From: a virus
Direction: 5' to 3' (one strand)
DNA: 64,000 nucleotides
Virus record (IMG/VR): IMGVR_UViG_3300027762_000003
Coordinates: 1 to 64,000 of that record
This document shows, one piece after another, positions 6,922 to 63,817 of this stretch. The translations under genes were made by a program, and so were the position numbers. Numbering within the stretch: the stretch's first letter is position 1; each line of letters starts with the position of its first letter. A model generated the notes under the pieces. The model had not been told where the DNA came from. It was given only the letters and a program-made list of their open reading frames with translations, and did not search any database.

Positions 6922-7374
6922 TTAGATGTTAATCATTGGGATGATACGACTGCTGTAGTCATGATTGAACTGGTTCCAATATTGCTCTCTCTCGTGAATT
7001 AAGTATTCAGCGATTTGTTTCGTAAACGGGACTGCGTTTACTTCCTTTGCCGCTATTTTTTTTGCAGCGTCAAGAGTTAAAACAGAGAATCCGTGTAACC
7101 TTACAGGATCAATCGCTTTCAAGTCAAAGCAGATCCTGTTTGAGCCATACAAGTAATAGTAAATACCTTCCGGAATTTTATACACAAATGTGTATCCGTC
7201 ATACATCCATCTTCCATCTTTAATTTCTGTTTTTGTTACTCCGATCTGCGATGTCCCTTTTGAGTAAACAAGCCAGAACCCTGGTTCAACTTCAGATTCT
7301 CTAGAGGAAGCTAGACTGGGAATGTGGGAAACAAGCGCCCATCCTCTTTGCGCTGGCGATAATGCTTTAATCAT
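6922..7374 (-). CDS. Hypothetical protein, 150 aa
   Basis: Unrecognised. Tyr- and Trp-rich (DGRWMYDGYTFVYKIPEGIYYYLYG), soluble, with a mixed alpha/beta look. Its start overlaps the stop of the upstream adenine methyltransferase gene by 4 bases, implying translational coupling. Confidence 0.5.
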   Translation of the reverse strand: MIKALSPAQRGWALVSHIPSLASSRESEVEPGFWLVYSKGTSQIGVTKTEIKDGRWMYDGYTFVYKIPEGIYYYLYGSNRICFDLKAIDPVRLHGFSVLTLDAAKKIAAKEVNAVPFTKQIAEYLIHEREQYWNQFNHDYSSRIIPMINI

Positions 7375-8036
7375 GACTGGTTCTCCTGTCTATTTTGCTT
7401 TACTTGTACGTTACCAATGTCTTCAAAACTATCTTTAAACCTATCAACATCATCTCCTAAATAAAGGAAATCGTTGTAGTACCGTGGTGATTTTTCTTGA
7501 ATGCCTTCCGGAGAAATAAACGCTATCCGCTTGTAGGCTTCACAGATAGCGGAACACTGAGACTTCCACTTCAGATACCACGCAGCCCCGGTTCGATTAA
7601 GAAGTAGGATCGCGCTCTCTATACGCCCTTGTCGGTAAGAGTAGATAGCTTTTTCGAGGAAGGCTTGTTGGAGATTTCCGTAAGGGGGATTACACCAAAC
7701 TTGCCCTACCCACTGATGGTTTAATCCGTCGGTTTCTTGGGTATAGAATTTCCTGGCTTTTATCCACTCTTGAGCTATTAAGTTGGAAGCTGGATCTGTG
7801 TAAATTCCCCCCATGACCTTCCTGGCTTTCTCGATATATTCAGGAGGTGTGTACCACTCAACGGTCTGCTCCTTTCTCCACCCAATACTATCGGAGATGG
7901 CGGCGATCGCCTCATAGTGCTTTACTACCTTCTCTAATTCGTAGTATCGCGCTAATTCGGATTGAGGAACCGGCGATTGCTCTCGCTCTTTTTTGATGCG
8001 CTTCATCTCATCTAGCGCTTGTCTTTTAGTAATCAT
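7371..8036 (-). CDS. Phage DNA N6-adenine methyltransferase (Dam-like)
   Basis: The 221-residue protein matches the phage N6-adenine methyltransferase family. After a helical N-terminus it has EWYTPPEYIEKAR (about 60-72), the DPASN motif (81-85) and the catalytic NPPYG (116-120) that positions the target adenine. Such enzymes use S-adenosylmethionine to methylate DNA and commonly protect phage DNA from restriction. It is the first of several methyltransferase genes in 7.4-10.4 kb; target sequence cannot be told from sequence alone. Confidence 0.85.
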   Translation of the reverse strand: MITKRQALDEMKRIKKEREQSPVPQSELARYYELEKVVKHYEAIAAISDSIGWRKEQTVEWYTPPEYIEKARKVMGGIYTDPASNLIAQEWIKARKFYTQETDGLNHQWVGQVWCNPPYGNLQQAFLEKAIYSYRQGRIESAILLLNRTGAAWYLKWKSQCSAICEAYKRIAFISPEGIQEKSPRYYNDFLYLGDDVDRFKDSFEDIGNVQVKQNRQENQS

Positions 8037-8045
8037 TCCAAGTAA

Positions 8046-8249
8046 TCATTCCAACTCGCTATCTTTTCCCCAAAAGAGTCTATACAAAATTTCTTGAATT
8101 TCGTTATGTTCCTCTTCATATTTCTCTAGCCGTTCAAACAACTCAGGAGATATGTTAACAGCTGAAGGATTTCCAGGCTTTGCTTCATAGAATTCATAAA
8201 GATACCTTTCTTGTTCGCGCACTTCGATAAATTTAGGCTCTTCAACCAT
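8046..8249 (-). CDS. Hypothetical protein, 67 aa
   Basis: Small acidic protein (FIEVREQERYLYEFYEAKPG then Glu-rich helix LFERLEKYEEEHNEIQEI). No recognised domain. Its start overlaps the end of the cytosine methyltransferase frame by 8 bases, so it is likely co-translated. Confidence 0.5.
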   Translation of the reverse strand: MVEEPKFIEVREQERYLYEFYEAKPGNPSAVNISPELFERLEKYEEEHNEIQEILYRLFWGKDSELE

Positions 8250-8979
8250 AGTTAGCTACCTCTAGAAACTCTTGCAAAAAGACCGCCCCCAGTTGGGGGA
8301 CTATGGCGTTTCCGTAGCCACGCAGGGCATCTAATCGCCCCACTCTTTGGGATAGCCCATCAACCATCGGATGAATTCCGGGTTTAATGGGGCGGGCTTT
8401 CCCGTCGGAACACCTAACCCACTCTGGATTATCCCAGATATCAAACCTCGAATCTTTCTCAGCCCTACAGAATCCCCGGCTCCACTGTTTCCGTTCTGGG
8501 GTGGGGTTAGTGATGTGGGTGTTGGCCACAGCGCCCCAGTACAGCCGGTCGCGCTTATGGTAGGCTCCGACAGATGAAGCCGGTAGAGCGATCGCCGCGA
8601 CGGCGTAACCAATTCCTTCCAAGTCGCGTGCCACTTTATCCCACCATTTAAGGGCAGTATTTGAAACAACCTGCTCTCCAACGAGGATTGGAGGGCGACA
8701 CTGTTCAACGAGATTAAAGAAGACTGGCCACAGGTGGCGACGGTCGGTGAATCCCCTTTGGTAGCCTGCCCTTGAAAACGGCTGGCAAGGGAGACTTGCC
8801 GTCCAGATGGGGAAGTTTTGAGGGATGCCTGCCATATCGCAAGAGAGTGGCCATCCTCCAATACCACAGAAGAAGTGGCATTGAGTAAATTCAATAAGCT
8901 GAGTTGACGTGACTTCATTGATGTCAGCCTCCAGGACTTTGCCTGGAGGTAGTGTTTTATTTTGTGTGAGCAATCGCAT
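8242..8979 (-). CDS. DNA C5-cytosine methyltransferase (frame A)
   Basis: From the ATG at 8979 the product is 245 residues. Visible C5-methyltransferase motifs: I-like FCGIGG (37-42), IV PCQPFS with catalytic Cys65, VI-like GEQVV, VIII-like AYHKRDRLYW, and X-like LRGYGNAIVPQLGA at the C-terminus. It is much shorter than usual (over 300 residues), with motif I only partly preserved and a reduced recognition region. The same DNA carries a second conserved frame (8331-8918). A longer start at 9021 is open but lacks a ribosome site. Activity is plausible but not certain given the reduced length. Confidence 0.75.
   Translation of the reverse strand: MRLLTQNKTLPPGKVLEADINEVTSTQLIEFTQCHFFCGIGGWPLSCDMAGIPQNFPIWTASLPCQPFSRAGYQRGFTDRRHLWPVFFNLVEQCRPPILVGEQVVSNTALKWWDKVARDLEGIGYAVAAIALPASSVGAYHKRDRLYWGAVANTHITNPTPERKQWSRGFCRAEKDSRFDIWDNPEWVRCSDGKARPIKPGIHPMVDGLSQRVGRLDALRGYGNAIVPQLGAVFLQEFLEVANYG
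8331..8918 (-). CDS. Overlapping second conserved frame (WPTPT/PEFxxWLMGxP family)
   Basis: Read one frame away from the cytosine methyltransferase, this 195-residue frame contains segments I know from phage proteins often annotated beside or as cytosine methyltransferases: WKELVTPSRRSLYRL, SATGCTGALWPTPTS, and the C-terminal LNPEFIRWLMGYPKEW. It has its own start: GGAGG nine bases before ATG at 8918, preceded by CACAAAATAAAACACTA, a leader seen before other genes here. The GGAGG is inside a perfect hairpin (8928-8949). That both frames carry family motifs argues for genuine dual coding rather than chance, but expression is untested. Confidence 0.5.
   Translation of the reverse strand: MKSRQLSLLNLLNATSSVVLEDGHSLAIWQASLKTSPSGRQVSLASRFQGQATKGDSPTVATCGQSSLISLNSVALQSSLESRLFQILPLNGGIKWHATWKELVTPSRRSLYRLHLSEPTISATGCTGALWPTPTSLTPPQNGNSGAGDSVGLRKIRGLISGIIQSGLGVPTGKPAPLNPEFIRWLMGYPKEWGD
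8928..8972 (-). promoter_or_regulatory. Leader motif and hairpin hiding a ribosome site
   Basis: On the minus strand CACAAAATAAAACACTA (about 8972-8952) is followed by CCTCCAGG-CAAAGT-CCTGGAGG (8949-8928), a perfect 8-bp stem. The 3' arm contains the GGAGG ribosome site of the frame starting at 8918, so folding would block its translation. Confidence 0.6.
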
Positions 8980-9054
8980 CTTTTCACAGCATTTGTGGGA
9001 GCGATCGGTATAGAGAATCATTTTTTGGTTTTGGATTCCTGTTTAGGTGTCGCT

Positions 9055-9891
9055 TTAGCCATGATCAAATAATTCCACATGATCAAATAATTCCAATTGT
9101 TTACTACGTTTACCAGTACGATCACACACCCAAAGAACTTCTACTCGCTTCTCCCTGTGGTGTTGACTGGCGCTTGTATATGTCGGGATTTCGATTCTCT
9201 CTTGAGCGCTTAAAGGTTCAACGTTTTGCGCGTAGTTACTCAAGATATAGGATGACTTGCACTGATCAAGCTCAAAACATAATGATGCCCAATCCTGTGC
9301 CGTGTATCCCTTGTAGTGTCCTTGGTCATATCCAGGATAAGGTGGATCGATATAGATCAGTGTCTCCGGTGAGTCCCACCGTTTAATACAGTCAATCGCA
9401 TCACGACAAGCGATCGCCACATTACTTAATCTCTTCAGACATTGACCTAATACACTCTTCTTATTTGCCCAAGTATGGGATTGGAATTTACCCCTAACTG
9501 AGGTCTTCCACCCACCGTTTAGATCATGGGAAAAAGACTGCATAACTGCGACATAGTAAGCCCATGCTCGTTCCAGATCGGCGTATAATCCTGGATCTTC
9601 GAGAATCTCCTTAGCTCGACGGTGTTCAGCTTCTGAATAGGGGGTAAGCTCAATTAATCGCTCTAGTTCGGTAGGGAGCGATCGCGCTACTCTATACAGG
9701 TTAATCAAATCAGAAGATTTATCGTTGATAATCTCCTGTTTTGATGGTTTCTTTCTAAAGAAAACCGCCCCACCGCCAAAGAACGGTTCAAGATAGTTGA
9801 CATGGGGTATCGAGTCAACTATAGGGAGGATGTGGTGTGCAATTCTTTGCTTTCCTCCGTAGTAGGTTATCAATGGGGTCATCGGGGTCAT
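9055..9891 (-). CDS. D12-class N6-adenine DNA methyltransferase
   Basis: The 278-residue protein has the D12/Dam-type motif order: N-terminal YYGGKQRIA (10-18), the S-adenosylmethionine loop LEPFFGGGAVFF (34-45), and the catalytic IDPPYPGYD (181-189). Length fits the family. It would methylate adenine in a short site, for protection from host enzymes or for timing of replication. The C-terminal end has a near-duplicate (LELFDHVELFDHG), also visible as a short DNA repeat at the gene end. Its start overlaps the neighbouring methyltransferase gene by 4 bases. Confidence 0.9.
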   Translation of the reverse strand: MTPMTPLITYYGGKQRIAHHILPIVDSIPHVNYLEPFFGGGAVFFRKKPSKQEIINDKSSDLINLYRVARSLPTELERLIELTPYSEAEHRRAKEILEDPGLYADLERAWAYYVAVMQSFSHDLNGGWKTSVRGKFQSHTWANKKSVLGQCLKRLSNVAIACRDAIDCIKRWDSPETLIYIDPPYPGYDQGHYKGYTAQDWASLCFELDQCKSSYILSNYAQNVEPLSAQERIEIPTYTSASQHHREKRVEVLWVCDRTGKRSKQLELFDHVELFDHG

Positions 9892-10391
9892 CTTTTAACA
9901 GCGCTATCTTTTCCCGAAGTGATTTTGATAATCCCTCCTTTAATTGTCGAAATCTTCAGATGCGGGAACGCCTCCTTGATTTCTTGAACGTAGAACGAAG
10001 GGCGTTTATGCATCTGATAGCCCTTAGGGGTTTCCCCCTCTTGTTTATTACCGTCATAGTAGACGGTAATAAAAACCTCTTCGGCAACTTCTAGGGCATG
10101 AGCGATCACCGTGAGACGGACGGTCTTCTCTCGAATGACATTGAGGACATTCGAGAGAAGGACAGTGTGGTATTCGCCACTCAGGACGCGGCTGTTATGT
10201 TCAGGAGTGCGATTGAAAGGATCGTAAACCTGAGCATCAAAACCCGCATCCTTAAGGTAGTCAATGCCTAGATCATATTTACCACCACCGTAGTCAAGTA
10301 CGGATTTTCCAGAAAACAGTTGGTGGTGACGGTGCAGTGCAGGCACTTGTTTAATACTGGTCAGTGCTGATGAGTATTGTTGAGTAATCAC
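9888..10391 (-). CDS. Class I SAM-dependent methyltransferase, small
   Basis: GTG start with AAGGAG nine bases upstream and a conserved promoter in front. The 167-residue product has a Rossmann-like motif I VLDYGGGKYDLG (about 31-42), an acidic motif II end AQVYDP (about 53-58) and SNVLNVIRE (about 80) as the motif IV region. The substrate could be DNA, protein or a small molecule; there is no NPPY or PCQ motif, so a base methyltransferase is not indicated. Confidence 0.65.
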   Translation of the reverse strand: MITQQYSSALTSIKQVPALHRHHQLFSGKSVLDYGGGKYDLGIDYLKDAGFDAQVYDPFNRTPEHNSRVLSGEYHTVLLSNVLNVIREKTVRLTVIAHALEVAEEVFITVYYDGNKQEGETPKGYQMHKRPSFYVQEIKEAFPHLKISTIKGGIIKITSGKDSAVKR

Positions 10392-12446: not shown

Positions 12447-12562
12447 GAGATTAGTGTTTTATTTTGTGTAAGGGTTGGCGTTTGGAAAGCCGGGTTTTCT
12501 AAAATCCTCCTTCATTCGCCTCCCCCTTTTTTTTCTCTCTTCACAGGTTCAACCTCGAAAGT

Positions 12563-17370: not shown

Positions 17371-17439
17371 GCTTCACCTGTGTTTTATTTTGTGGTGTGC
17401 TAGTATCGATGAATCACGCTTCGTGTCGTGATTTTCTTT

Positions 17440-63706: not shown

Positions 63707-63817
63707 AACGAGTTCATATTGGTTTCCTTTTTGCGATTGAAAGAAAACCCGGCGGTTAACCGGGCTGTGGGGTGGGGTCATATTGGTCTCCTTGTTTTTT
63801 GTTTTGTGTATATTACT

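Follow-up and report, generated by a model that had tools for sequence, protein, structure and literature searches.

The window analysed here is a stretch of 64,000 nucleotides from an 80,027-base virus record (IMG/VR record IMGVR_UViG_3300027762_000003). On its minus strand, it carries two genes, designated alpha and beta, which share the same DNA in different reading frames, beta lying entirely within alpha in the +1 frame. The features of the locus and its two neighbours are as follows; the coordinates are those of the window and the basis of each assignment is given in brackets.

7371..8036, minus strand: neighbour, N6-adenine DNA methyltransferase (Dam, PF05869; E=2e-13)
8242..9021, minus strand: alpha, C5-cytosine DNA methyltransferase (C5-MTase) large subunit, 259 aa (PF00145, phrog_363)
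8293..8319, minus strand: alpha motif X, GYGNAIVPQ (sequence; hhalign to canonical motif X, E=1.3e-5)
8331..8918, minus strand: beta, nested +1-frame ORF, 195 aa, predicted motif IX/target-recognition subunit (phrog_1008, wobble constraint)
8340..8387, minus strand: beta predicted motif IX, LNPEFIRWLMGYPKEW (hhalign; strongest wobble constraint)
8514..8528, minus strand: beta WPTPT, the +1 reading over alpha VANTH after motif VIII (sequence)
8536..8559, minus strand: alpha motif VIII, HKRDRLYW (sequence)
8568..8699, minus strand: beta core, residues 74-117, helix plus beta-hairpin (confident AlphaFold2 part; one of two wobble-constrained zones)
8782..8790, minus strand: alpha catalytic PCQ, motif IV (sequence)
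8928..8932, minus strand: beta Shine-Dalgarno GGAGG, 9 nt before the ATG (sequence; enrichment of Shine-Dalgarno plus ATG in homologues)
8928..8949, minus strand: RNA hairpin CCUCCAGG-loop-CCUGGAGG over the beta Shine-Dalgarno (z = -3.1; one genome)
8951..8967, minus strand: leader motif ACACAAAATAAAACACT (exact; also upstream of other gene starts in the window)
9055..9891, minus strand: neighbour, D12-class N6-adenine DNA methyltransferase (PF02086; E=1.2e-19)

The nested genes and their setting

When both frames were searched with HMMs, alpha matched PF00145 (E=2.6e-16) and phrog_363 (E=2.4e-55), in agreement with the original prediction, which had read one frame as a C5-cytosine methyltransferase. 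Both PCQPFS and HKRDRLYW are present in alpha, as in the catalytic domain of the PF00145 C5-MTases. The gene had first been placed at 8242-8987; the lower end of this interval stands, and the alpha start has to be moved from 8987 to 9021. Alpha carries the motifs through VIII, plus X. Motif IX is absent between motifs VIII and X of the alpha chain, the C-terminal profile of which matches canonical C5-MTases at motif X only.

The beta ORF matched phrog_1008 (E=3.5e-17) and phrog_31772 (E=4e-6) in the same searches, and the beta of the window had no match in Pfam and NCBIfam. Similarly, phrog_1008 was matched by 64/64 scanned beta proteins and phrog_31772 by 61/64, and Pfam returned no family for the 64 beta members. 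Beta starts at the ATG at 8918, which is preceded at the spacing listed above by the GGAGG that had been predicted for the shifted frame, and it ends before motif X, which stays in alpha. The beta Shine-Dalgarno is covered by a perfect 8-bp hairpin, which ribosomes on alpha may open; in this one sequence, the hairpin suggests that the translation of beta would be coupled to the ribosomes reading alpha.

A leader motif found before other genes had also been announced, and ACACAAAATAAAACACT does occur in four copies against 0.12 expected in the window, all of them on the minus strand and just upstream of ORF starts (8951-8967 and 12453-12469, exact; 17379-17395, two mismatches; 63793-63809, three mismatches). 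A related element, ATAGACAAAAC(A/G), stands ahead of several more ORFs, which lie on either strand (4870, 10415, 15875, 46108 and 58358). Both elements are possibly a phage promoter or a translation leader.

The alpha/beta pair sits in a methyltransferase cluster (7371-10391, minus strand), along with the PF05869 Dam gene, the D12-class adenine methyltransferase gene and a weak Methyltransf_23 match, and scanning of the neighbours of the pair brought up no restriction gene. The host of the virus is probably a cyanobacterium, because GCGATCGC, which we take to be the HIP1-type palindrome typical of cyanobacterial genomes, occurs 68 times in the window against 0.8 expected.

Selection on the two reading frames

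The openness of the alternative frames was compared with that obtained after shuffling the synonymous codons within each gene. In the gene of the window, the longest open run of the +1 frame spans 228 codons versus 113 expected (0/500 shuffles as long), and the +2 frame has an ordinary open length (P=0.50). In essentially all homologues, the +1 frame is open over about 80-95% of alpha, far above the synonymous shuffles, and the +2 frames are again ordinary. An open +1 frame could in principle be an untranslated by-product, left open and similar by the conservation of the methyltransferase and by its codon bias. Such a reading is consistent with the conservation of alpha itself and with the high GC content of some homologues, but the effect is also observed in genes of about 50% GC. 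Furthermore, in 12 other C5-MTases, including E. coli dcm, the +1 stops are near the shuffled expectation and the open runs cover 12-31% of the gene.

The wobble bases also oppose the by-product reading. Of 143 representatives sharing less than 70% identity in alpha, 139 contain the beta motif LxP.....LMG. The alpha residue facing the Met of LMG varies (His 61, Asp 38, Asn 34, Tyr 3), but its codon is NAT in 136/136 homologues with H, D, N or Y in alpha, and the Gly codon after NAT is GGG in 132/134 cases versus 20.6% in the rest of these genes (P=1.7e-87). Hence, the Leu-Met-Gly of beta is fixed through codon choice in 139 alpha homologues. Column by column, there are two blocks in which the wobble bases depart from the usage of their own gene, with z reaching 22: one covers beta residues ~75-137, the other the C-terminal motif. 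The tail after beta lacks such a constraint in this test. With stops scored as neutral, the mean z values of divergent pairs are 3.4 for the core, 5.1 for motif IX, 0.2 for the N-half and 0.0 for the tail. This restriction of the constraint to the core and motif IX of beta is not what a by-product of alpha would leave.

The synonymous-site constraint that had been anticipated across homologues is apparent in 666 close pairs, the differences at four-fold sites falling from 0.31 before beta to 0.28 in the N-half, 0.18 in the core and 0.075 at motif IX, and amounting to 0.22 in the tail. In these pairs, the amino-acid change of alpha over the motif IX stretch (0.112) is no lower than elsewhere. 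In addition, a Shine-Dalgarno plus ATG is present at beta in 58/142 homologues, versus 7.8 expected from synonymous resampling. The N-terminal ~65 residues of beta are open, but their amino acids are no more conserved than expected from frame 1; this N-terminal third is the part of beta that fits the by-product reading, which we nevertheless regard as extremely improbable. Together, the wobble-base test, the four-fold-site divergence, the Shine-Dalgarno enrichment and the control genes strongly support dual coding with purifying selection on both frames, as originally predicted.

Copies with one frame broken and the other intact were confined to a decaying locus of Arsenophonus (L155) and to a few contigs with truncations or frameshifts. 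In two loci of the Arsenophonus endosymbiont (L155 and L169), stops and an indel break alpha and long parts of beta are still open. These are decaying copies with an ordinary pseudogene pattern.

Motif IX, single-chain relatives and distribution of the pair

Modelled alone with AlphaFold2, beta gave a low-confidence structure (mean pLDDT 62, pTM 0.25), which is confident only in a helix (residues 74-90), a hairpin (97-117) and the motif-IX helix, and these parts coincide with the wobble-constrained zones. A Foldseek search of the PDB with this model returned no match, and searching PDB sequences with the beta profile (hmmsearch) gave chance matches only.

The nature of beta was approached through single-chain actinophage C5-MTases (e.g., L373 and L358), which share the motif segment with beta but carry it as LxxxFxEWMMGxPxGW in the catalytic frame, between motifs VIII and X of one protein. 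First, the C-terminus of beta (LNPEFIRWLMGYPKEW) aligns with this in-frame VIII-X segment (hhalign, E=1.2e-10). Second, the single-chain enzymes match canonical motif IX-X (E=8e-5) and align end to end with canonical C5-MTases, the segment falling on RRLTPRECARLMGF of E. coli Dcm, which is motif IX. Third, beta matches canonical motif IX directly (hhalign, E=0.009), this match being weak because it spans 18 columns only, so that the motif IX identity of LNPEFIRWLMGYPKEW depends on the single-chain bridge. By these profile alignments, LNPEFIRWLMGYPKEW is the C5-MTase motif IX that is missing from alpha. The AlphaFold2 model of the single-chain L373 is confident in the catalytic domain and the C-terminus, and its best PDB match (Foldseek) is M.HhaI, which supports a C5 fold for the model without displaying the residue pairing at motif IX.

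The distribution of beta points in the same direction. All 21 loci retrieved with a beta-only query (21/21) carry alpha in the -1 frame, and all 80 matches in bacterial genomes (80/80) carry alpha in the other frame. The nested pair is also present in records of coliphage N15, epsilon15, and Paenibacillus, Lacticaseibacillus and Microcystis phages, and hundreds of further phages and prophages share the arrangement, which is mostly unrecognised in them. Among 491 loci, 359 have the motif in the +1 frame and 45 have it within the alpha chain, between VIII and X; no locus has it in both or in the +2 frame (0 and 0), in a homologue sample biased toward the reach of the pattern scans. The remaining 87/491 fit neither placement (66 unassigned, 17 in which the motif lies further downstream and four at contig ends). 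Many of them come from the two widest searches, and others that were inspected include clear alpha genes with a beta motif deviating from the pattern.

We also considered beta as a stand-alone phage family and rejected this candidate, since every recovered copy overlaps alpha or sits in-chain. The separate family to which the shifted frame had initially been ascribed is thus not upheld by the beta-query and bacterial loci, and beta is better read as a putative piece of the same enzyme, the one with motif IX, that has become detached. A related alternative is that beta is translated and acts as an effector of its own, such as a regulator or an anti-restriction protein, and not as a methyltransferase subunit. 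It would accord with the lack of a recognisable fold in isolated beta, and with the alpha-beta complex being a prediction. We consider it unlikely, given that the most conserved segment of beta corresponds to the very C5-MTase motif that alpha lacks, that the same segment occurs in-chain between VIII and X in the single-chain relatives, and that beta never occurs without alpha.

Several loci depart from the usual arrangement. In four single-chain loci (L358, L364, L373 and L477), the +1 frame retains SGMxRxGxxxxLP..LPTPxAS, which resembles the N-half of beta and is perhaps the relic of a split ancestor. In L275, the alpha ORF stops after motif VIII and beta reads on, within its own frame, into motif X. 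In mycobacteriophage Jarcob (gp69/gp70), the catalytic gene is split over two frames, with motifs VIII, IX and X in the second, and a natural frameshift, recoding or a sequencing error may account for this split. Public annotation is uneven (e.g., L105, L107 and L112), alpha alone being annotated in some records and both ORFs in others; in the PhiXhv-7 match (L105), the sole annotation is a hypothetical protein in the beta frame.

A predicted two-subunit methyltransferase and its known counterparts

We propose that alpha and beta very probably form a two-subunit C5-cytosine DNA methyltransferase produced from one dual-coding stretch, their assembly being deduced from the sequences. Alpha, read in frame 1, would provide cofactor binding and catalysis, with the motifs through VIII and X. 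The translation of beta would initiate inside the alpha gene, in the +1 frame, from its own Shine-Dalgarno and ATG. Beta would contribute motif IX, and the target-recognition domain would probably come from it too. The two polypeptides would then assemble into the active methylating enzyme. In view of the methyltransferase cluster, we infer that this enzyme and the flanking adenine methyltransferases most likely serve the phage to methylate its DNA and so protect it from host restriction.

Alternatively, a programmed ribosomal frameshift might fuse motifs I-VIII of alpha to the C-terminus of beta in one chain, in line with the existence of single-chain relatives and with the split of Jarcob gp69/gp70 between frames. 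We favour the independent initiation of beta, and regard frameshifting as very improbable, because beta has its own Shine-Dalgarno and ATG, with the Shine-Dalgarno enriched among homologues; because the ~65 codons upstream of the conserved core stay open, though unconserved and needless for a fusion product; and because such a product would lose motif X, which lies in frame 1.

On a broader scale, we see even chances that these genes represent a global branch of phage C5-MTases in which a +1-frame subunit supplies motif IX and target recognition, split and single-chain forms interconvert by frameshift, and specificity evolves under the constraint of dual coding; they would then constitute a very large unrecognised family of overlapping genes. 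Long same-strand overlaps in which one gene is fully nested and selection is measurable on each frame have rarely been documented in DNA phages or bacteria, and hundreds of natural copies are available for testing the alpha/beta overlap. The nested frames explain the varying output of gene callers, which annotate alpha, beta or both, and recoding the alpha gene during cloning would silently destroy the predicted second subunit. In the literature searched, we found neither a description of dual coding of C5-MTases across phages nor an assignment of phrog_1008 as a motif-IX subunit. Both phrog_1008 and phrog_31772 are labelled only 'DNA methyltransferase', the out-of-frame motif-IX subunit not being recognised there, and a phage protein family bearing this sole label gains a likely function from the present reading.

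The same nested pair has been annotated as overlapping ORFs in Kagunavirus K1H (ORF28 'Mte8-like protein' and ORF29 'C-specific methylase') and in Paenibacillus phage Jacopo (gp56/gp57), for which no functional or dual-coding analysis was found in the literature searched. The alpha/beta gene is not discussed in a survey of frame transitions (PMC3711429), and the HNH endonuclease inserted in actinophage methylases is a different out-of-frame element (PMC11855218). M.AquI (CYCGRG) is a two-polypeptide C5-methyltransferase with motifs IX and X both in the small subunit (PMC3404938). Alpha/beta resembles M.AquI in being a predicted C5-methyltransferase made of two polypeptides with a separate C-terminal piece, but it is not of the AquI type, motif X remaining in alpha and the genes being fully nested; L275 looks M.AquI-like.

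Among the closest counterparts is EcoHK31I, in which the small gene is nested within the large gene, in the other frame. M.EcoHK31I (YGGCCR) is a two-polypeptide C5-methyltransferase, the large subunit of which carries motifs I-VIII and X, with motif IX on the smaller polypeptide (PMC3404938). Compared with this description, alpha likewise has the motifs through VIII and X and no motif IX, which would lie here on the smaller polypeptide, beta. Unlike EcoHK31I, which belongs to a restriction-modification system, alpha/beta is a phage pair standing beside adenine methyltransferases. The nested split C5-MTase has in M.EcoHK31I a characterised precedent, known but obscure, and the arrangement is here very widespread.
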